Below, piece after piece: positions 14,567-56,260 of a stretch of 58,825 bases of DNA. A program made the translations under genes and the position numbers. The DNA lies in NCBI GenBank assembly GCA_004366385.1, contig SIRU01000063.1, forward strand, positions 1 through 58,825. Direction: 5' to 3'. The notes under the pieces were generated by a model that saw nothing but the letters and a program-made list of their open reading frames with translations, ran no database searches and was not told where the DNA came from. Source of the stretch: Actinomycetota bacterium. GTDB taxonomy: Bacteria > Actinomycetota > Thermoleophilia > Gaiellales > Gaiellaceae. Position 1 is the stretch's first letter, and the number at the start of each line of letters is the position of its first letter.

Positions 14567-15964
14567 GTGCCGCGGAAGGTCATGGTCATCGGGCTCGACT
14601 GCGCCGAGCCGTCGCTCGTGCTGGAGCGCTGGCGCGACGAGCTGCCGGTGCTCTCGGGGCTGATGGAGCGCGGCTCGTACGGGCGGCTCACGTCCGTGAT
14701 CCCGCCGATCACCGTTCCCGCGTGGAGCTGCATGATGTCGTCCAGGACGCCCGGCGACCTCGGCGTCTACGGGTTCCGCAACCGCTCGGATCACACCTAC
14801 GACGGTGGGTTCATCGCGATGTCGGACGCGATCCGCGAGCCGCGGCTCTGGGACTACGTCACGCGCGCCGGAGGGTCGTCCGTCGTCTTGTCGGTGCCCG
14901 GGACCTTCCCGCCGAAGCCGCTGAACGGGGTCCTGGTCGGGTGCTTCCTCACGCCGTCGGTCGAGAGCGAGTACACGTACCCGCGGGCGCTGAAGGACGA
15001 GATCGCGGACGTCGTCGGCGAGTACCTCTTCGACACGAAGGACTTCCGCACCGAGGACAAGGAGTACCTCCTGCGCCAGGTCTACGAGATGACCGACCGG
15101 CGCTTCCGGCTCGCCGAGCACCTAGCCGAGACGAAACCGTGGACGTTCTTCGCCGTGGTCGAGATGGGGCCGGATCGCATGCACCACGGCTTCTGGAAGT
15201 TCATGGATCCGGAGCACCGCAAGCACGAGCCGGGGAACGCGTACGAGAGCGCGATCCTCGACTACCACCGCCACGTCGACTCGCTGATCGGGCGGCTGCT
15301 CGAGCGCGCGGACGAGGAGACCGTCGTCTTCGTCGTCTCCGACCACGGCGCGAAGCGGCTCGACGGCGGCATCCGCATCAACGAGTGGCTGCGGCGGGAG
15401 GGGCTGCTGGCGACGCTGCGCGAGCCCGAGGGCGTGTCGTCGTTGCGCGACGTGGGCGTCGACTGGGGGAGGACGACGGCGTGGGGGGAGGGCGGCTACT
15501 ACGCGCGCGTCTTCCTCAACGTGCAGGGCCGCGAGCCGGAAGGTGTCGTGCCGGCGGACGAGTACGAGGCCGTGCGAACCGACCTCGCGCGGCGGATCGC
15601 CGAGATCCCCGACGACGCGGGCAACCCGATCCCGACCGCGGTCTACACGCCCGAGGAGCTGTACGGCGAGCCGCGCGGCGTCGCACCCGACCTGATCGTC
15701 GTCTTCGGCGACCTCTACTGGCGCTCAGTGGGGACGATCGGCGGTGACGAGGGCGTGCAGACGCTCGAGAACGACACCGGTCCGGACGACGCGAACCACG
15801 CGCAGGACGGGCTCTACGTCGTGGCGGGGCCTGGGGTGGAAGCGCGAGGGCGCGCCGACGCGCACCTGCTGGACATCGCGCCCACGATCCTCGAGCTGCT
15901 CGGGATCGACGAGCCGGAGGGGATGCGCGGCCGCAGCCTCCTGCCTGAGCTCGCGGCGCGCTGA
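14567..15964 (+). CDS. Alkaline-phosphatase-superfamily phosphodiesterase/nucleotide pyrophosphatase-like
   Basis: A 465-residue hydrolase of the type I phosphodiesterase / nucleotide pyrophosphatase family. Metal ligands and nucleophile follow the superfamily layout: Asp11 in [11 protein letters not shown], Thr49 as nucleophile in PPITVPAW, and later [26 protein letters not shown] and [17 protein letters not shown] supplying Asp and His ligands. No signal peptide is present, so it is predicted to be cytosolic. Substrate is unknown; relatives act on nucleotide or phospholipid phosphodiesters. GTG 14567 is preceded by a TATCGT -10 at seven bases; a start at ATG 14582 would cut the first strand. 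A strong hairpin follows the stop. Confidence 0.82.
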
Positions 15965-18971: not shown

Positions 18972-20144
18972 GTGAACGTCCTCGTCTACGTCTCGGACGC
19001 GCTCCGCGTCGACCATCTGGGCTGCTACGGCGCCCGCTTCCTGAACACCCGCACGATCGACGGGCTCGCCGCGGGCGGCGTCCGCTTCGACCAGGCCATC
19101 AGCGCCGCGCCGTGGACGGCGCCCTCGATGACGTCCATGGTCACGGGCCTCTACCCGCACCACCACGGCTACCTGCACTGGGACGCCGAGCTCGACCCGA
19201 CCACCGAGACGCTCTTCCGCGCGTTCGGCGCGCACGGGTACGAGGTCGGGACGTGGGTCTTCGACCGCACCTTCCTCTTTCGCGACCTGCCGGAGGCCAA
19301 CGTGCTCGGCACGAGCGAGACGCTCGACGGCGCGATCGGGTGGCTGCGCGCCAACCGCGAGCAGCCCTTCCTCCTCTTCTTCCACAGCTGGGCCACGCAC
19401 ATGCCGTACTTCGTCCAGCACGCGGAGCGGAAGGACTGGCGCGCGGCGAAGGAGGAGGTGATCGCGGGCATCCAGGCCGACTCCGCCTCCGCGCTCGAGG
19501 CCACGCGAGAGGCGTACCGGCAAGCAGTCGAGCGCCAGTCGGAGGAGCTGGTGGCGTCGCTACTCGGCGAGCTCGACTCGCTCGGCCTCCGCGAGAGCAC
19601 CGCGATCGCGTTCCTCTCCGACCACGGCGAGTCGTGGGGCGAGCGGTTCGCGGACAAGTCGAAGGTAGCGGGCGTGTACCACATGCACGGCGCGACGCTC
19701 CACGACGAGATCGTGCGCGTGCCGCTGATCCTCGCGGCGCCCGGCCTCGAGGCCGGCGTCGTCACACATCAGGTGCGCAGCGTCGACCTCGTCCCGACGC
19801 TGCTCGAGCTCGCCGGCCTTCCCGCGGGCGACATGGACGGCGAGTCGCTGCTCTCGGTCGACGGGGACCGCCCGGCGGTGATCGCGGGCACGGACCGCGG
19901 CGCGCTCTCGGCGCTGGCCGTGCGGCAGCCCCCCTGGAAGCTGATCCTCGAGGTCGAGACCGGGGAGGAGGAGGCGTACCAGCTTGAGACCGACCCGCGC
20001 GAGCGGATCTCCCGCCCCGCCGACGTGCCGCCGGAGCTGCGCGCGCTCGTCTTCTCCGAGCTCGAGTCGGCGGAGCGCCGCGAGCTCACGGAGGAGGAGG
20101 AGGCGACGGTGGCGAAGCGCCTCTCCGACCTCGGCTACCTGTGA
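18972..20144 (+). CDS. Sulfatase-like hydrolase with threonine nucleophile
   Basis: A 390-residue alkaline-phosphatase-superfamily hydrolase of the sulfatase type. The N-terminal VLVYVSDALRVDHLGCYG holds the first metal-binding Asp. The position of the formylglycine cysteine (C-X-P-S-R in true sulfatases) reads TAPSM with Thr49 in its place, so it cannot carry formylglycine. It may be a phosphodiesterase, phosphotransferase or Thr-type relative. AIAFLSDHGESWGER supplies further ligands. No signal peptide is seen. The last four bases overlap the start of E1-alpha (GTGA), so it is the first gene of the operon. Substrate is unknown; the operon context suggests a surface glycan or lipid ester. 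Confidence 0.82.
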   Translation: MNVLVYVSDALRVDHLGCYGARFLNTRTIDGLAAGGVRFDQAISAAPWTAPSMTSMVTGLYPHHHGYLHWDAELDPTTETLFRAFGAHGYEVGTWVFDRTFLFRDLPEANVLGTSETLDGAIGWLRANREQPFLLFFHSWATHMPYFVQHAERKDWRAAKEEVIAGIQADSASALEATREAYRQAVERQSEELVASLLGELDSLGLRESTAIAFLSDHGESWGERFADKSKVAGVYHMHGATLHDEIVRVPLILAAPGLEAGVVTHQVRSVDLVPTLLELAGLPAGDMDGESLLSVDGDRPAVIAGTDRGALSALAVRQPPWKLILEVETGEEEAYQLETDPRERISRPADVPPELRALVFSELESAERRELTEEEEATVAKRLSDLGYL

Positions 20145-21037
20145 CCGCGCTCGCCACCCTCTACGAGCGGATGCTCTTCGTCCGCCGCTTCGAGGAGACG
20201 CTCCTCGACCTCTTCTCGCAGGGAAAGCTCGTCGGCACCACGCACACGTACATCGGCCAGGAGGCGAACGGCGTCGGCGTGATCGACCACCTCGACCCGG
20301 CCGTGGACACGATCTTCTCCAACCACCGCTGCCACGGGCACTACCTCGCGTTCACGGACGACGCCTTCGGGCTGCTCAGCGAGGTGATGGGGAAGGCGAC
20401 CGGCACCTGCGGCGGGAAGGGCGGGAGCCAGCACCTGTGCCGCGGGAACTTCTACTCGAACGGCGTCCTCGGGAGCATCGTCCCGGTCGCGACCGGGATC
20501 GCGCTCGCGGAGAAGAAGAAGGGGACGGGCGCGGTGTCGACCGTCTTCCTCGGCGACGGCACGCTCGGCGAGGGCGTCACCTACGAGTCGCTGAACATGG
20601 CCTCGCTCTGGACGCTTCCCGTGCTCTTCGTCGTCGAGAACAACCACTACGCGCAGTCGACGCCGGTCGAGCTCGAGCTCGCGGGGTCGATCCGGGCCCG
20701 CGCCGAGGCGTTCGGCGTCGAGACGGACGAGCTGGACACGACCGACGTGGAGGAGATCCACGCCGCGGCGGGGCGAGCGGTGGCGCGCATCCGCGAGACC
20801 GGCGCGCCGTTCTGGCTCGTGCTGCACACGTACCGCTTCAGCCCGCACTCGAAGGGCGACGACAACCGCGACCCGGCCGAGATCGAGGCGCGGCGCGAGC
20901 GCGACCCGCTGACGGTCGCCGGCGCGCGGCTCGAGGACGACGAGCGCGAGGCGATCGCGGTGCGCGTCGAGCAGCGGCTCGCGGAGACCGTGGCCGCCGC
21001 CGAGGAAGCCCCGTTCGCCGAGCCGGAGGCAGCGTGA
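20141..21037 (+). CDS. 2-oxoacid dehydrogenase E1 component, alpha subunit
   Basis: A 298-residue thiamine-diphosphate enzyme subunit. With the beta subunit it decarboxylates a 2-oxoacid and passes the acyl group to a lipoyl domain. Family features are RRFEETLLDLFSQGKLVG, the substrate loop YSNGVLGSIVPVATG and the ThDP/Mg motif GDGTLGEGVTYESLNMA, with NNHYAQST following. It lacks the long N-terminus and phosphorylation loop of mitochondrial E1. Closest general type is the acetoin/branched-chain/pyruvate E1-alpha family; the true substrate is not predictable. It overlaps the sulfatase-like gene by four bases. A 136-base gap with two palindromic repeats separates it from E1-beta. Confidence 0.9.
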   Translation: MTALATLYERMLFVRRFEETLLDLFSQGKLVGTTHTYIGQEANGVGVIDHLDPAVDTIFSNHRCHGHYLAFTDDAFGLLSEVMGKATGTCGGKGGSQHLCRGNFYSNGVLGSIVPVATGIALAEKKKGTGAVSTVFLGDGTLGEGVTYESLNMASLWTLPVLFVVENNHYAQSTPVELELAGSIRARAEAFGVETDELDTTDVEEIHAAAGRAVARIRETGAPFWLVLHTYRFSPHSKGDDNRDPAEIEARRERDPLTVAGARLEDDEREAIAVRVEQRLAETVAAAEEAPFAEPEAA

Positions 21038-21060
21038 CCCCGGACGCGATCCCTGCGAGA

Positions 21061-21089
21061 GCACTTTGTGGCTCTGAGCCACGAAGTGC
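21061..21089. repeat. Palindromic repeat, copy 1
   Basis: GCACTTTGTGGCTC and GAGCCACGAAGTGC pair around a single T (13 of 14 pairs plus a wobble). It shares the core GTGGCTC-T-GAGCCAC with copies at 21134-21154 and 22716-22740. It has the look of a REP-type element. Confidence 0.65.
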
Positions 21090-21133
21090 CCCCCGCGTCT
21101 CGGACGAGGCGCGGGACGAGCGCGCTGACAACG

Positions 21134-21154
21134 CTCGTGGCTCTGAGCCACGAG
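21134..21154. repeat. Palindromic repeat, copy 2
   Basis: CTCGTGGCTC and GAGCCACGAG form a perfect 10-bp stem around one T. It lies 44 bases after copy 1 in the E1-alpha/E1-beta gap, a paired arrangement that could form two hairpins in the mRNA and alter relative expression of the two subunits. Confidence 0.65.
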
Positions 21155-21173
21155 GTGTTCCCGGGGAGGCGTC

Positions 21174-22205
21174 GTGAGCGCGGGCGGTCACCGGCGCTGC
21201 GCCCAGGTCCTGAACGAGGCGCTGCACGAGGTCTTCGCCGCGCGTGACGACGTCGATCTCCTCGGCGAGGACGTGCTCGACCCGTACGGCGGCGCGTTCA
21301 AGGTCACGCAGGGGCTCTCCGACGCGTACCCCGACCGCGTGCTGACGACGCCGATCTCCGAGGCGTCGCTGTTCGGCGTCGCGGCCGGGATGGCGCTGCG
21401 CGGCCGCCGCCCGATCCTGGAGATCATGTTCGGCGACTTCGTCGCGCTCGGCTTCGACCAGATCGTGAACGGGATCTCGAAGTTCCGGGAGATGTACGAC
21501 GACCAGGTCACCGTCCCGCTCGTCGTGCGAACGCCGATGGGCGGGCGCCGCGGCTACGGGCCGACGCACTCGCAGTCGCTCGAGAAGCTGCTGCTCGGCG
21601 TCCCGAACATCGTGGTCGTCGCGGCGAGCGAGTGCCACGACCTGCGCGCGCTGCTCGTCGCCGCGGTCGAGGACGAGCGCCCGGTGTTCCTGCTCGAGAA
21701 CAAGCTCATGTACGGGCGCCCGAACCGCCGACCGGAACACCGGCACGTGGGCGAGTTCGAGGTGCGCGAGACCGGAGGGCCGTACCCCGCGCTCACGTTC
21801 TCGGCGACCGGCTTCTCGGAGGGCTCGGCCACCGTCGTGACCTACGGCGGGATGCTCCCAGTGGTGCTCGACGCCGTGACGGAGCTCGTGCTCGAGCACG
21901 AGATCTTCTGCGAGGTGGTCGCGCTCTCGCAGCTCGCGCCGCCCGAGCTCGACCCGGTGCTGGAGTCGGTCGCGCGCACGGGCGCCCTCGTGACCGCGGA
22001 GGAAGGGACGCTGACCGGCGGGATCGGCGCGGAGATCGCCGCGCGCGTGCAGGAGGCGGCGTGGAGCGACCTGCGCCGGCCGGTGCAGCGCGTCGCCGCG
22101 CGCGACGGGATCGTCCCCTCCGCCCGCCCGCTCGAGGACGCGATGCTCCCGAGCGCCCGCGACGTCGTCGAGGCGGTCCTCGTCCTCGAGGCCGTGCGAA
22201 GCTAG
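21174..22205 (+). CDS. 2-oxoacid dehydrogenase E1 component, beta subunit
   Basis: A 343-residue partner of the E1-alpha subunit. It contributes the pyrimidine-binding glutamate region LTTPISEASLFGVAAGMALR and the segment RTPMGGRRGYGPTHSQSLEK with its conserved His. The C-terminal transketolase-like domain (about residues 205-335), containing VVALSQLAPPELDPVLESV and TAEEGTLTGGIGAEIAA, is complete. GTG 21174 follows GGGGAGG (21163-21169) at four bases. It is followed after nine bases by the lipoyl-acyltransferase gene, so E1 and its lipoyl partner should be made together. Confidence 0.9.
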   Translation: MSAGGHRRCAQVLNEALHEVFAARDDVDLLGEDVLDPYGGAFKVTQGLSDAYPDRVLTTPISEASLFGVAAGMALRGRRPILEIMFGDFVALGFDQIVNGISKFREMYDDQVTVPLVVRTPMGGRRGYGPTHSQSLEKLLLGVPNIVVVAASECHDLRALLVAAVEDERPVFLLENKLMYGRPNRRPEHRHVGEFEVRETGGPYPALTFSATGFSEGSATVVTYGGMLPVVLDAVTELVLEHEIFCEVVALSQLAPPELDPVLESVARTGALVTAEEGTLTGGIGAEIAARVQEAAWSDLRRPVQRVAARDGIVPSARPLEDAMLPSARDVVEAVLVLEAVRS

Positions 22206-22214
22206 GCGCCGCCC

Positions 22215-23780
22215 ATGCTCGAGATCGTTCTCACGCGCGAGGACGCGAACACCGAGTACGCGCTCCTCGCGGAGTGGCTCGTCGCCGACCGCTCCGAGGT
22301 CGAGGCGGGCCAGCCGGTCGTCGTGGTCGAGACGACGAAGGCGACCGTCGAGGTCGAGGCGCCCGGCGCGGGCATTATCGTCCAGCTGTACGAGGAGGGC
22401 GTCGAGGTCGAGCTCGGGAAGGTGATCGCGAGGATCGCCGAGAGCGCCGAGGAGCTCGCGTCGCTCGACGTCGGCGAGTACGACGAGCAGCCCGCTCCGA
22501 AGCCCGCCGAGGGCGAGCGCAAGGCGACGCGCAAGGCCGTCGCGCTCGCGGAGCGCCACGCGATCGACCTCTCCCGGATCGACAAGCGCGGGTTCATCAC
22601 CGAGAAGGACGTCGAGGAGCTCGTCGCACGGGAGCGGGCTGCCGCAGCCCCCGGAGCCGGCTCGCTGCTCGCAGGCGTCTCCACGGAGGGCGTCACACTT
22701 CCGGCGTCGTTCGAACCTAGTGGCTCTGAGCCACAAGGTGCTCTCGGCGCGCTCGACACCGCGTTTCTCGAGTCTCTCCGCAGCGACCCCGACGCCTTTC
22801 GCGCGCTCTCGCCCGACGAGAAGGTGCGCGCGCTCCGCGACGGCGGCGCGCACGTCGGCGACGACGTCGAGCTCGGTGAGGGCTCGTACGTCGTCGCACC
22901 CAGGATCGTGATCTCGGACGGCGTGCGCCTCGGCCCGCGCGCGACTGTCGTCTGCGAGGAGGTCTTCAAGGCGGGAGCGCTCACGAGCTTCGGCCCCAAC
23001 CTCGAGCTCCGGTGTCGCCGCGCGTTCCTCGGCGACGGGATCTGGGGCGGGCGCTCCGTGCGCTTCGGCGGCGGCGGCCATCGCGACCCGTGGGCCGTCC
23101 TGGCGGTCGGCGACCTCGCGTTCGTCGGCGACGAGGTGTTCGTGAACGTCTGCCGGCCGGTGCTGATCGGCCGCGAGGCGTATGTGACCATGCGCTCGCT
23201 GATCGTCACCCACAACATCGGCCACTCGGTGCTGGAGGGCTTCGAGAACCGCTTCGCGCCGGTCGTCGTCGAGGACCGCGCGCAGGTCGGGCTCGGCGCG
23301 GTGATCTACGCGGGCTGCCGGATCGGGGCGGAGGCGATCGTCGCCTCCAACTCCTACGTGACCGGGGACATCCCCTCCGGCTCCTTCGCGATCGGCGTTC
23401 CCGCGAAGGTGACGGGAAAGGCGAGCCACACGCCGTCGCGCTCGCGTCAGCTCGAGCTCGGGCGGCGGATCGTGGACGACCTCCGCGAGCTGCTCGCGCT
23501 CCGCGGCCACGAGGTCGCGGACGCCGACGACGGCTTCGAGATCGAGGGCGTGCGCGTCCTCTTCGTGCCGCGCTACGAGGGCGGGGTCGAGGGTGAGGCC
23601 GTCGTCCTGACGGTGGAGGCGAGCGCCGACCCGCCCGCCGGCGTCGCGGTGCTCGACCTGCTCGCGCGTCAGGTGCACGGCACCGGCGGCCCCGTGCTCG
23701 ACGCCGCCCGCGAGCTCTGCCGCAAGCGCGGGATCCGCTTCGAGCCGGGCCCCTGGCGCTACCGCAGCGGCCTGATCTAG
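22215..23780 (+). CDS. Lipoyl domain / subunit-binding domain / hexapeptide acyltransferase fusion
   Basis: A 521-residue protein that begins like an E2 component but ends differently. Residues 1-78 are a lipoyl domain with the attachment Lys42 in VVVVETTKATVEVEAPGAG. Residues 104-137 are a peripheral subunit-binding domain, KAVALAERHAIDLSRIDKRG then FITEKDVEEL. The usual catalytic acyltransferase domain is absent. In its place, residues about 205-400 are a left-handed beta-helix hexapeptide acyltransferase, with VIYAGCRIGAEAIVASNSYV and IPSGSFAIGVPAKVTG. A C-terminal domain of about 120 residues is not recognised. I infer that E1 loads an acyl group on Lys42 lipoate and the beta-helix transfers it to an acceptor. 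Residues 168-176 are encoded by a palindromic repeat. Confidence 0.85.
   Translation: MLEIVLTREDANTEYALLAEWLVADRSEVEAGQPVVVVETTKATVEVEAPGAGIIVQLYEEGVEVELGKVIARIAESAEELASLDVGEYDEQPAPKPAEGERKATRKAVALAERHAIDLSRIDKRGFITEKDVEELVARERAAAAPGAGSLLAGVSTEGVTLPASFEPSGSEPQGALGALDTAFLESLRSDPDAFRALSPDEKVRALRDGGAHVGDDVELGEGSYVVAPRIVISDGVRLGPRATVVCEEVFKAGALTSFGPNLELRCRRAFLGDGIWGGRSVRFGGGGHRDPWAVLAVGDLAFVGDEVFVNVCRPVLIGREAYVTMRSLIVTHNIGHSVLEGFENRFAPVVVEDRAQVGLGAVIYAGCRIGAEAIVASNSYVTGDIPSGSFAIGVPAKVTGKASHTPSRSRQLELGRRIVDDLRELLALRGHEVADADDGFEIEGVRVLFVPRYEGGVEGEAVVLTVEASADPPAGVAVLDLLARQVHGTGGPVLDAARELCRKRGIRFEPGPWRYRSGLI
22716..22740. repeat. Palindromic repeat, copy 3, inside a coding region
   Basis: ACCTAGTGGCTC and GAGCCACAAGGT pair around one T with a single mismatch. 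It shares the core of copies at 21061 and 21134 but lies within the lipoyl-acyltransferase gene, in frame, in the linker before the beta-helix. Confidence 0.65.
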
Positions 23781-25051: not shown

Positions 25052-28000
25052 TCAGCGCCCGCTGGGTGCGACGCCCGCCACCCGGAACACGCCCCACGGC
25101 TCGCCCAGCCCCTTGAACTCGCGCTTCCCGCGCGGCTCCAGCGAGATCCCGGAGCCGGCGACGAGGTCGTGCGTCGTGCCGGTGACGAGGATCTCGCCGG
25201 CCTCCGCCTCCGCCGACACACGCGCGGCGACGTGGATCGCGATGCCGTGGAGGTCGTCCGCCAGGCGCTCGACCTCGCCCGTGTGGATGCCGATCCGCAC
25301 GTCGAGCCCGAGCGCCGCGAGCCGGTGCCGGAGCGCGGCCGCGGCGCGGATCGCGCGCGCCGGCCCGTCGAAGAGCGCGAGCACGCCGTCCCCCACGATG
25401 TCCACGACCTCGCCGCCGAACTCGTCGATCGTGGCCCGGAGCGCCGTGTGGTGGGAGCTGAGGAGCGAGCTCCACGCCCGGTCGCCGATCGCGGCTGCGG
25501 TCTCCGTCGAGCCCACGAGGTCGGTCATGAGGATCGTCTTGAGCACGCGGGTCGGCCGCGCGGGCGTCTCCAGCGCGCGCACGAACGTCTCCACCTCGTC
25601 GAGGATCTGATCCGGGTCCATCGAGACGAAGTGGTCGACGCCGGGGAGCTCGACGAAGCGGGCGTCTGGGATGCGCTCGGCGATGTACTGCCCCTCGGCC
25701 AGGCGCACGTCGACATCGCCGGTGCGGTGGAGGACGAGCGTCGGGACACGGACGGCCGGGAGCGTCGCCCGCACGTCGATGAGCGAGTTCATCTCGATCA
25801 GCGCCCGCGCCGCCCCCGGGCTCGCGGCCGCCCGTGCGCGTTCACCCCACCACGCGGCCATCGCCTCGTCCGCGTTCGGGCACATGCGCTGCATGTCGGC
25901 CTCCCAGCCCCACTCGCGCTCGATCTGCGCGGCGTACTCGCGGCGCTCCTCGAGCGTCTGCGCCCACGGGTAGTCCTCGGAGCGGACGCGGGCGGCGTAG
26001 GCGCCGTAGAGCACGAGCGCGAGCACGCGCTCCGGGTACGTGGCCGCGAACTGGATCGCCATTGGCGCGCCTTCCGAGTAGCCGAACACGACCGCGCGCT
26101 CGCAGCCGACCGCGTCCATGACGGCGCGCACGTCGTCCATCCGGGTCTCGAGGTCGGGGAGGTCGCCGGGCCGGTCGGAGAGCCCGCTCCCCCGCTTGTC
26201 GAAGCGGATGAGCCGTCCGAGCGAGCCGAGCCGGTCGAGGAAGTGCGCGTGCCGGGGCTCGTCCCAGTCCTTGTCCAGATGCGAGACGAAGCCGGGCACG
26301 AGGACGATGTCGAGCTCGCCCGTGCCGGTGACCTGGTACGCGATCGAGAGCGAGCCGCTTCGCGCGTACGACACCGGCGGCCTCGTACGCGTCGCGGGCG
26401 GCGAGGCGACCGGGGAGGCTGCCGCGGACAGGAGCTCGCGCGCGCCGGCCACGTCGGCCGTCTCGAGGCCCTCGTCGAACGAGCCGACGATCCGCTCGAG
26501 CTCGCGCGCCGCCTCCAGGTCGCCGTGGCGGACCAGCGCCGTCGCCGCCCGGAGCTCGAGCGAGCGGGCCTCCTGGCCGGTCGCGACGTCGAGTGCCGCC
26601 CGCAGGTCGTCGCGCCCGCCCGCGTCGCCGCGCGCGATCCGCAGCTCGCCTCGCAGCCGCAGCAACTCGGCGCCGTAGAAGGAGCCGGAGGGCTCTCCGA
26701 CGAGCGCGAGCCCCTCCGCGACCGCGTCCAGCCCGTCGTCGAGCCGGCCGTTCGCGAGGCACGCGTCGGCGAGCAGCCCGAGGAAGTACGCCTCGTCCAG
26801 CACGATCCCCGTCGCCCGCGCGTCCTCGATCCCCGCGCGGATCTCGTCGATCCCGGCGCTCGAGTGCGCGTGCGCCTGCGCCCAGCCGGCGAGGACGCGC
26901 CCCATCGCGGCGCGGTACGTGTAGTGGCGCTCCTCCGCGAGCACCCGCGTGCGCGTCGCGGCCTCGAATGTCTCCGCGACCTCGCGGCGGCACTGGTGCA
27001 CGACCGCCGCCTGTGCAGTCGCCGCAGCCAGCCCGTAACTCCGCGCCGGGTCCTCCGCGAGCCGCACGGCCTCGAGCGCGCGGTCGAGAGCCTGGTCGGG
27101 GAAGCCGAGGAACCAGAGCGAGAGCGCGACCCAGTCGTGGCAGGCGACGGCCGAGTCGTCGCCGAGGCTCACCACGGCCGGCTCGTACGACGCGCTCCGG
27201 TACAGCTCGACGCCGCGCTCCGCCTGCTCGAGCGCACCTGCGAACGCGCCGCGGTGAAGCAGGTTGCACGCGAGGATCTCCTGCACCTCGATCCGCCGGT
27301 CGGTGTCCTCCGGCGACAGCACCTCGAGGCAGCGGTCGAGGTGCTCCTGCGCCCGCTCGTACTCGCCGCGCACCTCGGAGATGGTGGCGAGCGCGATGAG
27401 GATGGGGACGAGCGGCTCGCGGTCGTCGAGGCGCGTGCAGAGGTCGCGGGCCTGCTCGAACTCCGTCTCGGCGTCCGCGGACGGCCAGCCGTCCCGCAGC
27501 ACGTAGGCCCGCCCGAGCAGCGTCCGCAGCTCGAGCTCGAGGCGGTCGCGCCCTCGCCCGGGCGGGAGGCCCTCCACGAGCTCGTGCGCGCTCGTGAGCA
27601 GGTCGAGCGCCTCCCGGTGCGCCGTCCGGCGGAGGGCGAGCTCCGCGGTCAGCCGGAGGTAACGCACGGCGCGGTCGGCGAGCCCGGCCCGGACGGCGTG
27701 CCGCGCGAGCGCGGGGGCGATCTCGGGCGCGTCCTCGCCGTGCGCCTGCTCGAGCGCGTCCGCGAGCTGCCGGTGCAGGGCCGCGCGGTCGGGCGGGGCG
27801 AGCTGCTCGTAGGTGATCTGCTCGTGCAGCTCGTGGACGAAGCGGTGCACGGGGGAGGTCGTCCCGTCGGGCCACTCGACCTCTCCGGCCGGCGCGAGCA
27901 AGCGGCGGCGGACGAGGGCGGCTGCCGTCTCCTCCACGTCGGGCTCGTCTCGGCCGAGCGCCGCGGCCAGCACCCGCGTCGCGCTCTCGGCGCCCGCGAC

Positions 28001-29722
28001 GGCGGCCGCCTCGAGCACGCTCCGCTCCTCGGGCGGCAGGGCGCCGAGCTCCTGGAGGACGAGCGCGCGCAGCGTCGGCGGAACCGTGGTCGCGAGCTCT
28101 TCGACGCCGCAGGTCAGCGACCAGCTGCCCTCGGTCTCGACCAAGGCGCCGGAGTCGATCCAGGCGTCGACGACGTTGTCGGCGAACAGCGGGTTGCCGC
28201 CCGTGCGTGCGTGCAGGACCTTCGCGGCCTCCTCCGTCGCGTCGAGGCCGGGAGCCTTGCGCTCGAGGAGCGCCGTGAACGCGTCCGTGCCCAGCGGCCC
28301 CAGCTCGACGATCGAGCAGAGCCGGCGGACGCGCAGCGCGGCCGCGAGCGCCGCGACCTCCGGCTCCGGGTCGCCGCCGGCGGCGTACGTGCCGACGATC
28401 AGGAGCCGCGCGCGCTCGTCCCGCCGGGCCACGAGCTCGAGCGCCGTGAGCGTGGAAGGGTCGCTCCAGTGGAGATCCTCGAGTACGAGGACGAGCGGCC
28501 GGTCCTCCGCGAGCCGCGTGACGAGCTCGGCGAGCTCGCGCAGCATCCGCTGCCCGCTCGAGCCTGCGGCGCGGCGGCGCAGGTCGTCGAGCTCGCCCGC
28601 GGGGACGAGCCACGGCATCTGCTCGAGCCACGAGGGCGCGTGCCGCGAGAGCAGCTCGAGCACGGACTCTCCACCCTCGCGCGCGAGGCCGCCGAGTGCG
28701 TCGAGCAGCGGGAGGTACGGCTCGCCGGCGCCGCGCTGGTCCAGGCTCTGGCCCCTCGCGACGAGCGCTCCGTGCCGTCGCGCCTCGCCCTCGACGAGGG
28801 CGTCCACGAGCGCCGTCTTGCCCACGCCCGGCTCGCCCGCGACGAGCACGAGCCGGCAGCGGCCGGCGAGCGACTCCGCGAGCGCGTCTCGCAGCGCCTC
28901 CAGCTCGGCGTCCCGGCCGGCGAGCTCGGTCGCGGAGGCGCGGGCGGTGGGCAGAGCCACGGCAGGCGAGCCGTCCGTCGCCGGCGGCGCCTCCAGCCCG
29001 GGATCCTGGTTGAGGATGCGGCGCTCGAGGTCGCGGAGGTCGGCCGACGGTGCGATGCCGAGCTCGCGGTCGAGCGTCTCGCGGAAGGACGCGTAGACGG
29101 CGAGCGCGTCGGCCTGGCGGCCGGAGCGGTAGAGGGCGAGGATCTGCTGCGCGCGCAGGCGCTCGCGCAGCGGGTGTCGCGAGACGTGCGCGTCGAGCTC
29201 CCCGGTGAGCTCGTGGTGCCCGCCTGCGGCGAGCTCCGCATCGATCCGGTCCTCGAGCGCAGCGAGCCGGAGCTCCTCGAGGTGCGGCCCCTCGATCGCC
29301 GCGAACGGCTCCGAGAACTCCGACAGTGCCGGCCCGCGCCACAGCCCGAGCGCTTCGCGGAGCATCGCTGCCGCGTCGGCGGGGCGCGCGGGAGCCGTAG
29401 TGCGCGCATCGTCCACGAGCCGGCGGAAGCGCTCGAGGTCGAGCTCGTCGGGCTCCACGCGGATCGCGTACCCGGCACCGCGCGTCTCCACCAGCCCGTC
29501 GGGGAGGGCCTTGCGGAGCCGCGAGACGTAGATCTGCACCATCTTCGCCGCCGTGTCGGGCGCCTCGTCACCCCAGAGGTCGTCGACGAGCCGCGCAGCG
29601 GGGACGGCGCGGTTCGCGCTGAGCAGGAGGACCGCCAGGAGCGCCCGCTGCTTCCCGGCAGCGAGTGGGAGAGAGCCGCCCCCGTCGGAGACCTCGAGTG
29701 GGCCGAGGATTCGAAACTTCAT
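25052..29722 (-). CDS. Giant BTAD-ATPase-TPR-hydrolase-adenylate cyclase regulator
   Basis: A 1556-residue protein. Residues 1-95 are a winged-helix Trans_reg_C domain (MKFRILGPLEVSDGG at its start; QIYVSRLRKALPDG is the recognition region), and 96-245 a BTAD domain, the SARP layout. Residues about 265-640 are a STAND-type ATPase with P-loop GEPGVGKT (296-303) and LVLVLEDLHWSD as Walker B. TPR-like helices run to about 1120. An alpha/beta hydrolase domain follows, with nucleophile serine in VFGYSEGAPMA. The C-terminal 165 residues are a class III adenylate/guanylate cyclase, with MTDLVGST, VDIVGDGVLALFDG and RIGIHTGEVE supplying both metal Asp residues; the usual Asn of the VNxAAR segment reads His in GIAIHVAARV. 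ATG 29722 has no Shine-Dalgarno and TAGCGT lies 11 bases upstream. Confidence 0.88.
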   Translation of the reverse strand: MKFRILGPLEVSDGGGSLPLAAGKQRALLAVLLLSANRAVPAARLVDDLWGDEAPDTAAKMVQIYVSRLRKALPDGLVETRGAGYAIRVEPDELDLERFRRLVDDARTTAPARPADAAAMLREALGLWRGPALSEFSEPFAAIEGPHLEELRLAALEDRIDAELAAGGHHELTGELDAHVSRHPLRERLRAQQILALYRSGRQADALAVYASFRETLDRELGIAPSADLRDLERRILNQDPGLEAPPATDGSPAVALPTARASATELAGRDAELEALRDALAESLAGRCRLVLVAGEPGVGKTALVDALVEGEARRHGALVARGQSLDQRGAGEPYLPLLDALGGLAREGGESVLELLSRHAPSWLEQMPWLVPAGELDDLRRRAAGSSGQRMLRELAELVTRLAEDRPLVLVLEDLHWSDPSTLTALELVARRDERARLLIVGTYAAGGDPEPEVAALAAALRVRRLCSIVELGPLGTDAFTALLERKAPGLDATEEAAKVLHARTGGNPLFADNVVDAWIDSGALVETEGSWSLTCGVEELATTVPPTLRALVLQELGALPPEERSVLEAAAVAGAESATRVLAAALGRDEPDVEETAAALVRRRLLAPAGEVEWPDGTTSPVHRFVHELHEQITYEQLAPPDRAALHRQLADALEQAHGEDAPEIAPALARHAVRAGLADRAVRYLRLTAELALRRTAHREALDLLTSAHELVEGLPPGRGRDRLELELRTLLGRAYVLRDGWPSADAETEFEQARDLCTRLDDREPLVPILIALATISEVRGEYERAQEHLDRCLEVLSPEDTDRRIEVQEILACNLLHRGAFAGALEQAERGVELYRSASYEPAVVSLGDDSAVACHDWVALSLWFLGFPDQALDRALEAVRLAEDPARSYGLAAATAQAAVVHQCRREVAETFEAATRTRVLAEERHYTYRAAMGRVLAGWAQAHAHSSAGIDEIRAGIEDARATGIVLDEAYFLGLLADACLANGRLDDGLDAVAEGLALVGEPSGSFYGAELLRLRGELRIARGDAGGRDDLRAALDVATGQEARSLELRAATALVRHGDLEAARELERIVGSFDEGLETADVAGARELLSAAASPVASPPATRTRPPVSYARSGSLSIAYQVTGTGELDIVLVPGFVSHLDKDWDEPRHAHFLDRLGSLGRLIRFDKRGSGLSDRPGDLPDLETRMDDVRAVMDAVGCERAVVFGYSEGAPMAIQFAATYPERVLALVLYGAYAARVRSEDYPWAQTLEERREYAAQIEREWGWEADMQRMCPNADEAMAAWWGERARAAASPGAARALIEMNSLIDVRATLPAVRVPTLVLHRTGDVDVRLAEGQYIAERIPDARFVELPGVDHFVSMDPDQILDEVETFVRALETPARPTRVLKTILMTDLVGSTETAAAIGDRAWSSLLSSHHTALRATIDEFGGEVVDIVGDGVLALFDGPARAIRAAAALRHRLAALGLDVRIGIHTGEVERLADDLHGIAIHVAARVSAEAEAGEILVTGTTHDLVAGSGISLEPRGKREFKGLGEPWGVFRVAGVAPSGR

Positions 29723-29733
29723 CCGACCCGCTG

Positions 29734-29739
29734 ACGCTA
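29734..29739 (-). promoter_or_regulatory. -10 element of the giant regulator gene
   Basis: Minus-strand TAGCGT, 11 bases before ATG 29722. The sites for the divergent GNAT gene are not evident. Confidence 0.35.
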
Positions 29740-29806
29740 GCACGCGCTCTCGGCCCGTTTACCGGGCGCCTACCGGCGGTTCGCCGGCCTCGGGCACGCT
29801 CGTCCC

Positions 29807-49791: not shown

Positions 49792-50703
49792 TCAGGGGTC
49801 ACCGCGCCTCCAGCGCAGTCGCCGCATGCGCAGCAAGACGAAGAATGCGCGCTGCGGAAGCATCAGTGCGGACGCGAGGAGCAGCCACGCGGAGCTGCAA
49901 CCCAGTGACATACGCAGCGCTCGACACGCGTGGTATCTCGCCGAGCTCCGGTTGCCCGAGCCGAAGGCCAACCAACCAAGACGCGTGTGCGCCACTAGCA
50001 GAGCTTCCGGATAACGCGCGTAAACGTGAGGATGCTTCCTGCGAAGGATCTCGAAAGCGATCGCTCCAGTCCCGTAGTCAAGCGTCATGCGACTTGTGTG
50101 ACCTCTCTCCACCACAACGAGCGGCTCGGGGATGACCGCGACTCGGAGCGTGCGTCCAATCCGCATCACGAAGTCCTGATCCTCCGCTTTCGGAAGTAGC
50201 GGGTCGAAGCCACCCAACTCGCCAAACGCCTCTCTTCTGATCAGAAGGGTTTGCACCGCGAAGAACTCGCCGGTCACCGCGGCATACGTTAGGCCGCTGC
50301 TCAGACTGGGTACGTGATCGGCTATCCGGCCGTTCGCGTGGAACCGAACGCCCGTGAACACGGCGTCGAACTCATCGATCCGCTGAACCTGGCGACTCAG
50401 CTTTTGCAGACGAAACTGATCGTCGTCGTCTAGGAATGCGACTAGGTCGTGTGCCGCATGGGACACCCCGAGGTTTCGCGCACGGCCAGCCGAGCAAGGT
50501 GTGGAGGCGAGCACGACGCGGAGTGACCGGTTCGGAGACTCAGGAATGTCGAGACAGGGACTGGAGTCGATCGCGACGATGAGCACCTCAATGTGGCCGG
50601 AGTACGTTTGTGCAAGCACGCTCCTCACTGCTCTCGCGAGCTCCTGCGGACGTGCGAGGGTCGGAATCACCACGGAGATAGCCGGTTGCGGCACGGAGTT
50701 CAT
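49792..50703 (-). CDS. Family 2 glycosyltransferase
   Basis: A 303-residue GT-A glycosyltransferase, last gene of the polysaccharide operon. The N-terminus ISVVIPTLARPQELARAVRS is the GT2 start; the metal-binding DDDD is in LVAFLDDDDQFRLQKL near residue 93. The acceptor-site motif KAEDQDFVMRIGR (ED) is near 190. The C-terminal 60 residues are hydrophobic then basic, LLLASALMLPQRAFFVLLRM, and may bind membrane. ATG 50703 overlaps the end of the FkbM gene (ATGA). Base composition is visibly less GC-rich than the housekeeping genes. Confidence 0.85.
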   Translation of the reverse strand: MNSVPQPAISVVIPTLARPQELARAVRSVLAQTYSGHIEVLIVAIDSSPCLDIPESPNRSLRVVLASTPCSAGRARNLGVSHAAHDLVAFLDDDDQFRLQKLSRQVQRIDEFDAVFTGVRFHANGRIADHVPSLSSGLTYAAVTGEFFAVQTLLIRREAFGELGGFDPLLPKAEDQDFVMRIGRTLRVAVIPEPLVVVERGHTSRMTLDYGTGAIAFEILRRKHPHVYARYPEALLVAHTRLGWLAFGSGNRSSARYHACRALRMSLGCSSAWLLLASALMLPQRAFFVLLRMRRLRWRRGDP

Positions 50704-51530
50704 ATCGATCGAAACGCTACGAGCTGAAGCTCTCCGTCGCGCGGGCGCAGTTCGTGCCCGGTGAATCCGAACACCTCCGAGAGCCTCGCAATCCGCTCGA
50801 CCGTGACGTGCGGCGAAAGGTGCTCTGGATGGATCTCGCAGATGAGCAGCCTGCACTCCGGTCGCGACAGCGTTCGCGCCAGCCCATAGAGCACTTGGTA
50901 CTCATGACCCTCCACGTCGATCTTGACTACCGTCGGGAAGCGCAGAGAATTCGCGTCGAGAAAGTCGTCGCCTCGCAAGACCTCGACGGCCATGTCTGCG
51001 CGTTCTCCATCGGTCCGCACAAGATGCGATGTCTGCGCAACGTCTAAGGCGCCAGCCATGACGAAGCCGCCAGTTCCTGCCTTGTCGCTGAGGGCGACTC
51101 TGAACGATCCGATTACGCGCTGAGCATCGCTGAGTTCGATGTTGCGGCGCAGCATGGCGTAGGCACGAGGCGAAGGCTCGACTGCGTAAACGGACCCGTC
51201 GGGACCGACTGCGGCTGCCGCAAAGAGCGCGAATAGTCCGAGATTGCTGCCCACGTCCAACAGAACGTCTCCCGGCCGCAGTTCTCCCACGATGATTTCA
51301 AGGGTCTTTCGCTCCTTCAACCATGAAAACTCAGTCAGGCGATACTCGTATGGGTCGGGTGAGCAGAACGCGACTGTGTGTGAGTGCGCTGTCAGGGACA
51401 ACGTCGGAGCGGATCGTGCAGCCAGCAGGTGATATACGCGTCGCGCGAGCGGCCGCAATCCGGCAGCACGGACGATCCGGGTCAGCAGCGGCGAGTAAGT
51501 AAGCCTGCGCGCGTAGTGGATCCGCCGCAC
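50700..51530 (-). CDS. FkbM-family methyltransferase
   Basis: A 276-residue SAM-dependent methyltransferase. SAM motif I is DVLLDVGSNLGLFALFAAAA (about residues 87-106), and post-I is VYAVEPSPRAYAMLRRNIEL. FkbM-type PTVVKIDVEGHEYQVLYG lies near 205. In polysaccharide clusters these enzymes put O-methyl groups on sugars. GTG 51530 is two bases from the stop of the GT4 gene. The acceptor is unknown. Confidence 0.85.
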   Translation of the reverse strand: MRRIHYARRLTYSPLLTRIVRAAGLRPLARRVYHLLAARSAPTLSLTAHSHTVAFCSPDPYEYRLTEFSWLKERKTLEIIVGELRPGDVLLDVGSNLGLFALFAAAAVGPDGSVYAVEPSPRAYAMLRRNIELSDAQRVIGSFRVALSDKAGTGGFVMAGALDVAQTSHLVRTDGERADMAVEVLRGDDFLDANSLRFPTVVKIDVEGHEYQVLYGLARTLSRPECRLLICEIHPEHLSPHVTVERIARLSEVFGFTGHELRPRDGELQLVAFRSI

Positions 51531-51532
51531 AC

Positions 51533-52696
51533 CTACCCCCTACGCCCGTCCGTAGTTCCGGCGAGTGCGACCTCGTATGCCGCCTCGAGTTCTGCAAGAC
51601 CACGTTCCGGGCTGTATCTCCGTTGCCAAAGCGCGAAGGCGCGGATACCCATCTGCTCGGACTCTCTGTCGTTGAGGAGGCGTTCCATCGCCTCGTACCA
51701 CCCCTTCCGGTCGCCGCCGTCAACTAAGAGCCCAGACTCATTGTGTTCCACGATCTCGGGGAGGCCCCCCGTGCGACTCGCGATCACCGGCACGCCGGCG
51801 GCGTAGGCCTCGACTACCACTCGGCCGAAGGCCTCCTGGCAGAGAGAGGGCACGACGACTGCGCGTGCCGCGCGGATGAGATCAGGAACGTTCGCCGGAT
51901 CCACGACTCCGCGAAACTCGACGGACGGCGGTGCAGCTCGACGGAGATCGGCCTCGTCGGGGCCAGTGCCTGCGACGACCAGGCGATGACCTGATTCACG
52001 AAGTGCGGGGAGCAGTGTGGCAAGCCCTTTCTCCTGCGACAGTCGGCCGAGGTAGAGGAAGTAGTCGCCTGCGCCTTCGCGCACTGCCGAGGGCCACGCG
52101 AAGTTTGGCTTGATACGCATACGCTCACTCGGAAACCCCGCCCTGGCGTGTGTATCGCGCACGAACTCGCTTACGGGGAGGAATCGGCTCACCATGTCGA
52201 AGCTATGGACTCCCCGGTGGACGCTGAGCGAAGTTGCGAGGGCTCCGGAAGCGAGAACGGAGTCGCGATAGCACCCGTGCACGACACCTCTCCACGGCAG
52301 CCGACCCACGCAGACCGTGCACGGCGCCTCGTCGCGCAATAACGCTCCATCAAGGCAGATCAGGCGGTGGTTCCGGAGTGACAAGAGCACTGGCACGCCC
52401 TGTCCTCGTGCTTCGCGTAGGACGGCTGGCGAGAGACTGGGAAAGAGGTTGTGACAGTGGACGACCTGGGGACTGTGCTCGCCGATGAGTCGCCGAACCG
52501 TCTTTGCCGCGCTGCGAGCCCAGACCGCGCTCAACCCTCGCCCGACCTGCGAGCGTCGGTTGTCCGTGACGGAAGGCTGCCAGACACTGACGGTGTGTCC
52601 GGCCTCTCGGAGGAGGCGTACCTCGTCGTCGACCGATCGGTTCTCGCCAGAGGCGTGCTCCGACAGGTACCGGGAGTGGAGGACGAGAACTCGCAT
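51533..52696 (-). CDS. Family 4 glycosyltransferase
   Basis: A 387-residue GT-B enzyme. The N-terminal domain has VLVLHSRYLSEHASGENRSV, the donor-domain segment DYFLYLGRLSQEKGLATLLP is near 205, and the conserved nucleotide-sugar E-X7-E is in CQEAFGRVVVEAYAAGVPVI near 300. A cysteine pair in APCTVCVGRLPWRGVVHGCY is a feature of a GT4 subgroup. It sits between the flippase and the methyltransferase genes, four bases from the former. The sugar donor is unknown. Confidence 0.87.
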   Translation of the reverse strand: MRVLVLHSRYLSEHASGENRSVDDEVRLLREAGHTVSVWQPSVTDNRRSQVGRGLSAVWARSAAKTVRRLIGEHSPQVVHCHNLFPSLSPAVLREARGQGVPVLLSLRNHRLICLDGALLRDEAPCTVCVGRLPWRGVVHGCYRDSVLASGALATSLSVHRGVHSFDMVSRFLPVSEFVRDTHARAGFPSERMRIKPNFAWPSAVREGAGDYFLYLGRLSQEKGLATLLPALRESGHRLVVAGTGPDEADLRRAAPPSVEFRGVVDPANVPDLIRAARAVVVPSLCQEAFGRVVVEAYAAGVPVIASRTGGLPEIVEHNESGLLVDGGDRKGWYEAMERLLNDRESEQMGIRAFALWQRRYSPERGLAELEAAYEVALAGTTDGRRG

Positions 52697-52700
52697 GACG

Positions 52701-54011
52701 TCAAGCTGTTGGCTGGGCAGGCTTCGCGTCGCCGACGTGCGCGCGGGGAGCGGTGGCATGCGTCTCAAGCGGCACCCGCTTTGCCGCTTCGCCGAAGTGC
52801 CACCAGGCGACAGCGGCGGTGCACCACTGTGCGATAGCGAGGCCGACTGCTGCGCCGACCGCGCCGTTGACGATTGCGCCTACACCGACAGCGAGGATGA
52901 TCAGAGGAGCGCCGATGAGTCGGACGCGGAGACTCAGACTCGCCGCCGCGAGGGCGCGCATGCCTGCGAACGCACCAGCCATGGCGCCGGAACCAGCCAT
53001 CGCCAGGGCGAGGTACAGGACGACCTCCCGCCCACCCGGCCAGGACTGGCCGAGTAGCGCGGTCCCGACGTCGTCAGGCAGGAGCAGCAAAAGCGAGCCC
53101 CATACAGTCGCGGCGCCTGCAAGAAGTGCGGACAGCATCTTCGCCCCATGGTGTAGCTCCCTCGGCGAGATCTTGAGCAAGCGCACACCTTCGGCGACCG
53201 CCGTAAGGCCCAGACCCATGAACAGAACGTGAAGTGGGCCGAGGAGAATCTGCCCGGCCCGCATGGCCCCTACGGAGGCCACCCCTGCGACTGCCCCAAC
53301 GATGTAGAACGAGAGCTGACCTGCGCCGAGCGTCGTCCAGAACTCCGCGAGGTATCTCGGAGCTAGGTCACTTTGTTCGCGCAGCCAGCGGGCGCTTGCG
53401 CGAGCGTTGGGGATGGTCCGCAACTGCCTGGCGCCGTACAGGGCGGCTATCGCGGCGGCGCCGCCCCACGCGAGGATGTACCAGCCTGCTCCAGCACTCT
53501 GTCCGGCGAGCATCGCCAGGAAGAGGGCAAATCCGACCGCCCAACAGAGGTCGTTCATGAGAGCAGCCGAGCCCTGTCCCTCGACGAAGAAGGCAAACCG
53601 CCAGAAGTCCTGCAGGAGCAGGCACGGCATCACGATCCCCATCGCGAGGACTGGCGTGGTCACACCCCGTCCGGCCAGCGATCCGATGAGAACGAGAACG
53701 ACACCCGCGAAGACGCCTGCGGCAAGAGCTGTGCCGGCTGCAGCACTCATGGCGTTCCGGCGGGCATCCGCGGCGGCATCCGTGTAACGGATGACGTAAG
53801 GCTCGGTGGCGATCGCTCGCGATGTACCCAGTGCGAGCCAGTAGGCCGTCAGAGCAAGGGCAAAGACACCAAACTCGCCGGGCGACACCGCTCTTGCGAC
53901 CGCCACCCCGAGCGCGAGGTTCGTGAGGCTGGACAGGGACTGGTCGGCTAGCCCCCAGCCGGCCCGATGTGCACCCCCAAGCCAGCGATTCCGTTGGCGC
54001 TCCTGATTCAT
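52701..54011 (-). CDS. Wzx-like polysaccharide flippase
   Basis: A 436-residue membrane protein of the polysaccharide-transport (MATE/MOP) superfamily, with about 12 hydrophobic segments. The N-terminus GWGLADQSLSSLTNLALGVA and the segment VARAVSPGEFGVFALALTAY are usual for PST flippases. It would move undecaprenyl-linked repeat units to the outer face of the membrane. ATG 54011 starts 12 bases after the Wzy-like gene. No gene symbol is given, because such proteins diverge too far for transfer of names. Confidence 0.85.
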   Translation of the reverse strand: MNQERQRNRWLGGAHRAGWGLADQSLSSLTNLALGVAVARAVSPGEFGVFALALTAYWLALGTSRAIATEPYVIRYTDAAADARRNAMSAAAGTALAAGVFAGVVLVLIGSLAGRGVTTPVLAMGIVMPCLLLQDFWRFAFFVEGQGSAALMNDLCWAVGFALFLAMLAGQSAGAGWYILAWGGAAAIAALYGARQLRTIPNARASARWLREQSDLAPRYLAEFWTTLGAGQLSFYIVGAVAGVASVGAMRAGQILLGPLHVLFMGLGLTAVAEGVRLLKISPRELHHGAKMLSALLAGAATVWGSLLLLLPDDVGTALLGQSWPGGREVVLYLALAMAGSGAMAGAFAGMRALAAASLSLRVRLIGAPLIILAVGVGAIVNGAVGAAVGLAIAQWCTAAVAWWHFGEAAKRVPLETHATAPRAHVGDAKPAQPTA

Positions 54012-54023
54012 CGGGATCGTGGT

Positions 54024-55457: not shown

Positions 55458-56260
55458 AGCGATCGAGTGCGCCCATTCGCGAGGGAGTCTCGGACCACGC
55501 CGATGACGAAGCTCGCGTTGCCGCGCAGATAGCGGCCCCCGAGGCGTCTTGGTTCACGCAGGAGGCGGTGGAGCCATTCGAGGCCACTGTTCTGCATCCA
55601 CCGGGGTGCACGTTGCTTCGCTCCCGCGACGAAGTCGAAGGCTGCTCCCACGCAGAGGAGCACGGCACGGGCATCGGCCGAGGCAAGGCGCTCGGCGGCC
55701 CAGTCCTGCTTGGGTGCGCCGAGGCCGATCCAGACGCAGTCGGCTCTCGCGGCACGGATGCGCTCGGCGGTTGCATGCCACTCGGCATCCGTCAGCTCGC
55801 GGAACGGTGGCGACTCGACTCCGACGACCTGGATACCTGGGTACCTTCGAGCCAGTGTCTCGCCGAGCTGGCCGGCCACCTCGGGGGTTCCCCCGTAGAG
55901 GTAGTGCCGTAGTCCGATTGCGACGCCCCACTCGCAGAGAAACGCCATCGCGTCGGAGCCGGCAAGTCGTTCTGCCGGGCAGCCGAATAGTCGAAGCGCC
56001 CACGCGACCGGCTGCCCGTCTGGCACGGTGAGGTCGCCACGGTTGAGGAGCTCCCGGTACGCCTCGTCGTGCCTAGCGAGCACGGTCGGGTGTGCCGCGC
56101 AGAACCGAACGATGTGGCTGTGGCCGCACTCCACGAAGCCCGCCACGCGCTGCGCGAGCTCGTCCGGCGAGACCGGATCGAGGCGCACGCGGTTCACGTA
56201 GCCATGCCTCGCTGCGGCTCGATCGCACCGGCACTCGGAAGCTGCCAGTGCCGTCGCCAC
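55454..56260 (-). CDS. WecG/TagA/CpsF-family glycosyltransferase
   Basis: A 268-residue GT26 enzyme that would add a sugar to an undecaprenyl-linked precursor at the inner face. Conserved segments are FCAAHPTVLARHDEAYRELL (about 53-72), LTVPDGQPVAWALRLFG (about 77-93), LYGGTPEVAGQLGETLARRY (about 120-139) and VWIGLGAPKQDWAAERL (about 175-191). GTG 56260 shares one base with the stop of the epimerase gene (TAGTG). The sugar (ManNAcA, ManNAc, glucose or other) is not predictable. Confidence 0.88.
   Translation of the reverse strand: MATALAASECRCDRAAARHGYVNRVRLDPVSPDELAQRVAGFVECGHSHIVRFCAAHPTVLARHDEAYRELLNRGDLTVPDGQPVAWALRLFGCPAERLAGSDAMAFLCEWGVAIGLRHYLYGGTPEVAGQLGETLARRYPGIQVVGVESPPFRELTDAEWHATAERIRAARADCVWIGLGAPKQDWAAERLASADARAVLLCVGAAFDFVAGAKQRAPRWMQNSGLEWLHRLLREPRRLGGRYLRGNASFVIGVVRDSLANGRTRSL

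Follow-up and report, generated by a model that had tools for sequence, protein, structure and literature searches.

A lipoyl protein with a beta-helix acyltransferase in place of the E2 core: a candidate for coenzyme A-free acyl transfer to sugars

The best-known role of lipoate is to carry acyl groups in complexes of central metabolism whose final product is acyl-coenzyme A (CoA). Can lipoate also hand acyl groups directly to sugars? This question is raised by a 58,825-nucleotide stretch of DNA from a member of the Gaiellaceae (Actinomycetota; assembly GCA_004366385.1, contig SIRU01000063.1), hereafter the window. In it, genes for the alpha and beta subunits of a thiamine diphosphate (ThDP)-dependent E1 dehydrogenase are followed by a gene for a 521-residue protein (22215-23780, + strand) that carries a lipoyl domain, a subunit-binding-like domain, a beta-helix acyltransferase domain and a C-terminal domain. 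We refer to this protein and its full-length relatives of the same architecture as LH. At a probability of roughly 60%, we favor the reading that LH acylates a hydroxyl or amine of a sugar directly from lipoate, without CoA. We infer the lipoate-to-sugar step from the architecture of the proteins and the company that their genes keep.

Architecture and conservation of the LH fusion

Upstream of LH, on the same strand, lie E1-alpha (20141-21037; PF00676, E1_dh, E-value 4.6e-54), whose closest solved relative is the human pyruvate dehydrogenase (PDH) E1-alpha, and E1-beta (21174-22205; PF02779, Transket_pyr, 4.3e-28; PF02780, Transketolase_C, 6.8e-22). The lipoyl domain of LH spans residues 1-80 (22215-22454; PF00364, Biotin_lipoyl, 7.2e-12). 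Its Lys42, in the motif ETTKA (22338-22340), is the predicted lipoylation site and is invariant in alignments A1 and A2. At residues 105-138 (22527-22628) follows a peripheral subunit-binding-like domain. The window protein has no significant Pfam match to PF02817 there; a profile-profile comparison (hhalign) with canonical E2 binding domains gave 96.4% probability (E-value 1.3e-9) over these residues, with a loop three residues shorter than in the E2 counterpart. Judged by this comparison, the binding domain is real but divergent.

The left-handed beta-helix acyltransferase domain covers residues ~212-400 (22848-23414; PF00132, Hexapep, 9e-9). Its closest solved relative is 3ect (1.3e-9), and the His of the 3ect motif ASHS aligns with the invariant His333 of LH (VTHNIGHS; 23211-23213), the candidate catalytic base. 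The closest named models are those of WcaF-type O-acetyltransferases, with scores far under their cut-offs. The NeuD_NnaD model scored 40.8 bits (cut-off 160.8), and LH has no match to the PglD_N Rossmann domain (PF17836). The C-terminal alpha/beta domain (residues 409-521; 23439-23777) has no Pfam match and is shared with a lipoyl-free relative (L026:88-1002). Pfam and, for the binding domain, hhalign confirm the gene and domain order given in an earlier reading of the window (the original prediction). That reading had also denied the third protein an E2 acyltransferase core, and we indeed found neither a PF00198 match nor a DHR/HxxxDG motif in LH. An E2 core concealed in the C-terminal part is ruled out on the same grounds.

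The AlphaFold model of LH is of moderate confidence (predicted local distance difference test, pLDDT, 66), and the match list of its fold search was dominated by lipoyl/biotinyl domains. Residues 1-87 matched the lipoyl domain 2q8i_B (Z 13.2, root-mean-square deviation 2.2 over 87 residues). Residues 201-390 matched GlmU (2oi6_A; Z 13.2, 161 residues) and a complex of LpxD with acyl carrier protein (ACP) (4ihf_A; Z 13.1, 164 residues), both with a large deviation.

A search of the genome collection returned nine full-length relatives. In the resulting 10-sequence alignment (A1), the other members are 48-73% identical to the window protein, and no variation occurs at Lys42, THN (332-334, including His333) or His337 or within the ENRFAP stretch. 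Whole-genome searches placed LH in four of the seven genomes of the genus, counting that of the window, in a few other Gaiellaceae genera and in a second Acidobacteriota genome (G917). The full-length fusion thus occurs at 13 different loci in Gaiellaceae and Acidobacteriota (the window, L004-L012, L023, L025 and L091), and it is unbroken in a single-contig genome (G009). Since it is intact in that genome and at 12 loci besides the window, the fusion is not an artefact of assembly, and it is not limited to one genome. The idea would have lost its footing had the fusion been confined to this genome with its active-site residues missing; instead, it recurs with His333 invariant, and the gene order upstream of it is kept in Gaiellaceae.

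Relatives without a lipoyl domain also exist. One, consisting of the beta-helix and the C-terminal domain, directly adjoins a LuxC acyl-CoA reductase gene (L026/L118; G053, contig C204). Streptomyces acyltransferases similar to LH sit near AMP-binding enzymes, and genes annotated as PIG-L lie beside the Streptomyces relatives. On plasmids, the only relatives of LH or of the lipoyl-PglD proteins described below were lipoyl-free Streptomyces acyltransferases and partial acetyltransferase matches.

The E1-beta clade and parallel fusions

Searching with the lipoyl/binding module revealed that the same E1 and lipoyl/binding modules are also fused to PglD/NeuD sugar N-acyltransferases in Myxococcota, Pseudomonadota and other Thermoleophilia. 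In all of these lipoyl-PglD/NeuD fusions the PglD-type His is retained, as is the Lys of the lipoyl domain, and the NeuD_NnaD score was above the cut-off for two of them (L128 and L161). In Myxococcota they occur at 13 loci in 11 of 189 genomes, and E1-alpha and E1-beta adjoin the fusion in 11 of the 12 loci examined. Within the window's own taxonomic order, L027/L112 contains the run Gfo/Idh/MocA, DegT, E1-alpha, E1-beta and lipoyl-PglD beside chemotaxis/flagellar genes. A Pfam Bac_transf gene (PF02397, a PglC-type sugar transferase) lies downstream in Myxococcota loci L161 and L165, and NeuB is close by in L162. Pseudomonadota loci include L076, L081/L173 (with DegT adjoining), L141 and L142.

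The strongest single locus, also from Pseudomonadota, is L172 (G825, C55:50000-69000). Its gene run comprises a NeuA-like cytidylyltransferase, NeuB, NeuC (417 bits, cut-off 236), a dihydrolipoyl dehydrogenase (TIGR01350, 447 bits, cut-off 408.8), a polysaccharide deacetylase, a fused E1-alpha/beta and lipoyl-NeuD. Going by its predicted genes, nothing required for a lipoate redox cycle is missing from the locus, where NeuD stands in for E2; this nonulosonate-type cluster apparently encodes a complete, dedicated complex. N-deacetylases recur near such loci: besides the polysaccharide deacetylase here, PIG-L is found in L114. Their presence would fit removal of an acetyl group followed by re-acylation.

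A maximum-likelihood tree joined the E1-betas of all these loci in one clade (branch support 100/100), apart from the canonical E1-betas sampled from PDH and branched-chain 2-oxoacid dehydrogenases (BCDH). The canonical side of the tree holds E1-betas beside ordinary E2s, three of them from the window's own genome. The motif [GR][YF]GPTHSQ is present in 35 of 36 clade members and in none of the 19 canonical rows. One fast-evolving row (L082) was first labelled canonical, fell on the special side in the first tree and was dropped from the second; its locus carries the clade motif and an ACP-like gene. The clade includes RenH, from a renieramycin plasmid, and an E1 from Streptantibioticus cattleyicolor, whose lipoyl-E2 sits beside KASIII/polyketide synthase-like genes. 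A search with E1-beta alone, blind to neighbors, gave hits in five of 346 Actinomycetota genomes. Three of these lie outside the window's genus, and there the E1 adjoins a lipoyl-E2 (two genomes) or a convergent lipoyl-PglD (one).

Lipoyl-E2 together with an ACP-like gene occurs at L111, L119, L177 and L187. The first three show E1, lipoyl-E2 and an S-adenosylmethionine-dependent methyltransferase with a small ACP-like gene, which looks like a further pathway to an acyl-ACP product. Separately, a sulfotransferase gene precedes lipoyl-PglD in three Thermoleophilia loci (L011, 2444-4601; L174; L188; Pfam run for L011 and L174).

Proposed mechanism and its alternatives

We propose that LH takes the place of E2 in a 2-oxoacid-dehydrogenase-like complex. 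E1 would form an acyl group that is most likely small and load it on the lipoyl arm at Lys42, which would then swing to the beta-helix active site. There, His333 would activate a sugar-type acceptor at a hydroxyl or amine, which would take the acyl group directly from lipoate. A tethered donor has a precedent in this fold in the LpxD-type uptake of acyl groups from a carrier protein, to which the 4ihf match points; both LpxA and LpxD use acyl-ACP. The dihydrolipoyl group would be reoxidised by a housekeeping E3 docked through the binding-like domain. The original prediction was right that no E3 lies near the operon (there is none in the window) and that one should exist elsewhere: a genuine E3 gene is located on another contig of the same genome (C44:109964-111325; TIGR01350, 473.6 bits). 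Direct transfer to a sugar-type acceptor, also predicted, probably holds, since PglD/NeuD fusions of the same design recur in glycan clusters, one of which encodes an E3 of its own.

Several observations weigh against this mechanism. No nucleotide-sugar gene adjoins the window operon, and the nearest glycosyltransferase-like cluster is ~26 kb off. Myxococcota locus L170 has no E1 near its lipoyl-PglD, and in the Thermoleophilia loci L011, L174 and L188 lipoyl-PglD is convergent with E1 and outside the E1 operon. The E1 tree was built without QncN, QncL and NapD sequences. LH also retains GVPAK, a motif typical of CoA-using beta-helix acetyltransferases, which leaves room for CoA use.

That motif is one reason to consider that the beta-helix domain draws on acyl-CoA like other enzymes of its kind, with the lipoyl/E1 part serving another purpose or partner. 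The lipoyl-free relative beside LuxC and the Streptomyces acyltransferases near AMP-binding enzymes point the same way. We nevertheless consider this unlikely, because the same lipoyl module is found on a different type of acyltransferase, PglD/NeuD, with the same E1 clade nearby in nearly all cases, and an unused fusion is not expected to recur. Less probable still is that LH acts like an E2 and passes the acyl group from lipoate to CoA or ACP, its beta-helix trimer being mainly a scaffold. E2 cores and beta-helix enzymes are both trimers, and members of the same E1 clade do have lipoyl-E2 beside ACP-like genes (L111, L119, L177, L187). Yet no ACP gene was seen in the window operon or beside its relatives L004-L010, LH lacks the E2 motif, and hydroxyls and amines are the usual acceptors of beta-helix acyltransferases.

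The identity of the acyl group is a question of its own, in which the rest of the proposed mechanism stays the same. QncN/QncL/QncM are described as carrying a C2-glycolicacyl unit from a ketose phosphate via a lipoyl domain and an acyltransferase domain to an ACP (PMC6335953); NapB/NapD and DinS/DinU are likewise treated in another account (PMC7570522). Since the window E1-beta groups with RenH, which resembles QncN/QncL, the product of the window E1 may be glycolyl-lipoyl instead of the acyl group of a classic 2-oxoacid, and a glycolyl group drawn from a ketose phosphate is plausible. RenH and RenI, a fused E1 followed by a lipoyl-acyltransferase, are presumably of the QncL kind, as judged by architecture. 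The ordinary 2-oxoacid donor assumed by the original prediction is therefore doubtful. It is still quite conceivable, without being probable, that E1 takes pyruvate, 2-oxobutyrate or a branched-chain 2-oxoacid and that acetyl, propionyl or a similar group is moved. PDH provides the best named models and structures for both E1 subunits, and the E1-like enzyme that works with an E2-nonribosomal peptide synthetase (NRPS) fusion in pepteridine synthesis was proposed to act on alpha-keto acids (PMC5384830). Against such a donor, the window E1 falls outside all sampled PDH/BCDH E1s, and a dedicated E1 would be needless for plain acetyl, as acetyl-CoA feeds ordinary acetyltransferases.

Extended to several phyla, the proposal becomes more tentative, and we place it somewhat short of even odds: glycan biosynthesis would use lipoate generally as an acyl carrier, with a dedicated ThDP-dependent E1 moving C2 (glycolyl) units from ketose phosphates onto lipoyl domains. 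From there, a fused acyltransferase of exchangeable type (WcaF-like beta-helix, PglD/NeuD or E2) would pass them directly to an ACP or to the amine or hydroxyl of a sugar. E3 would reoxidise the carrier, and CoA would not be needed. If this is true, acyl-lipoyl is a third tethered or activated donor for glycan acylation beside CoA and ACP, and E2 has a catalytic domain that can be swapped as a module. Unusual sugar decorations, perhaps N-glycolyl, would then be predicted on flagella and surface polysaccharides. The E1-beta motif GYGPTHSQ together with a lipoyl domain fused to an acyltransferase provides a signature for finding such clusters, and L172, with its own E3 in the gene run, is a ready test case.

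Operon neighbors and known systems

The first gene of the conserved operon encodes an alkaline phosphatase (AP)-superfamily hydrolase/transferase of the 'sulfatase-like' kind (18972-20144, + strand; 390 aa; PF00884, 1.8e-39; start inferred from homologues), whose 3' end shares four bases with the start of E1-alpha. The Gaiellaceae order is AP-superfamily hydrolase, E1-alpha, E1-beta and LH, with the first two overlapping; the hydrolase is immediately 5' of E1-alpha in L004-L010 (L008 ends at the contig end) and in L114. Its nucleophile site reads APWTAPS (alignment A3). Because Thr occupies the nucleophile position and the residue two places after the Pro is not Arg, the enzyme is probably not a classical sulfatase, and 'sulfatase' serves as a family name only. 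Its AlphaFold model (pLDDT 50) was too poor for use.

The original prediction placed this hydrolase and a major facilitator superfamily (MFS) protein in one operon and took them to suggest production and export of an acylated compound. The hydrolase is conserved upstream of E1-alpha, but the loci of LH relatives compared lack the MFS gene that the window has at 23803. The MFS gene is therefore outside the conserved operon, and the export idea is not supported. Upstream, a PF01663-type phosphodiesterase gene (14567-15964, + strand; start inferred from homologues) is a conserved neighbor in most Gaiellaceae loci; the locus comparison did not establish it as part of the operon. No deacetylase gene adjoins the window operon.

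Three copies of a palindromic repeat, GTGGCTCTGAGCCAC, lie within the operon (21068-21082, 21137-21151 and 22720-22734). Two are inside the 136-base gap between E1-alpha and E1-beta, a gap that is not found in relatives, and the third, within the LH frame, is an insertion at about residues 168-175 that is missing from homologues. The genome has 57 sites of this repeat versus none for the reversed control pattern, and it looks like a small mobile element of the REP (repetitive extragenic palindromic) type. Elsewhere in the window, the - strand encodes a putative 1563-aa regulator in one frame (25052-29743), in which we read a SARP-like activator, an ATPase, an alpha/beta hydrolase and an adenylate-cyclase-like domain. 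Predicted glycosyltransferase/polysaccharide-like genes occupy 49792-56260 (- strand). Their third-position GC is low (0.67-0.78 versus ~0.95 elsewhere in the window), which suggests that they were recently acquired.

A literature search for lipoyl domains with hexapeptide proteins, NeuD/PglD or O-antigen found no such fusion described in the searchable literature, which excludes most subscription journals. A flagellin paper (PMC4875605) was rejected as a precedent, as 'lipoyl' there refers to fatty acids. The original prediction knew of no characterised system of this form. This holds for the transfer to sugar, which would be the new part, but not for transfer from lipoyl to a non-CoA acceptor, since QncL-type proteins are already described as moving acyl groups to an ACP (PMC6335953).

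Among known systems, the pyruvate and branched-chain 2-oxoacid dehydrogenase complexes have E1-alpha, E1-beta, a lipoyl domain and a binding domain in common with the window set, which differs by lacking the 2-oxoacid_dh core and by an E1-beta in a separate clade. The named models and solved structures nearest to the LH acyltransferase domain are those of WcaF/maltose-acetyltransferase type O-acetyltransferases; these enzymes depend on CoA and, unlike LH, have no lipoyl domain or E1 partner. PglD/NeuD enzymes share with LH the beta-helix acyltransferase and a catalytic His (predicted in LH) and are lipoyl-fused in the sister architecture, whereas the PglD Rossmann domain is not found in LH. 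The known PglD/NeuD enzymes use acetyl-CoA and have no lipoyl domain. In the Photorhabdus pepteridine pathway, an E1/E2-like pair comparably puts an acyl group on the free amine of a small molecule, but there the proposed route uses a condensation domain and an NRPS carrier instead of a beta-helix acyltransferase (PMC5384830). Closest are QncN/QncL/QncM (quinocarcin), NapB/NapD/NapC (naphthyridinomycin), SclQ1-4 (scleric acid) and RenH/RenI (renieramycin), which, like the window set, combine an E1-type ThDP enzyme with a lipoyl domain and, as proposed for the window set, send the acyl group to a non-CoA acceptor. The E1-beta of RenH is in the same clade as that of the window, and GYGPTHSQ is common to both. 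In these systems, the acyltransferase of the lipoyl protein is of the E2 type and an ACP is loaded for NRPS assembly (QncL and NapD judged by description), whereas LH has a sugar-type beta-helix and no ACP gene accompanies it in the operon. The LH system is therefore a predicted lipoyl-dependent acyl transfer that is most like the QncL type, with the E2 domain swapped for a sugar acyltransferase.

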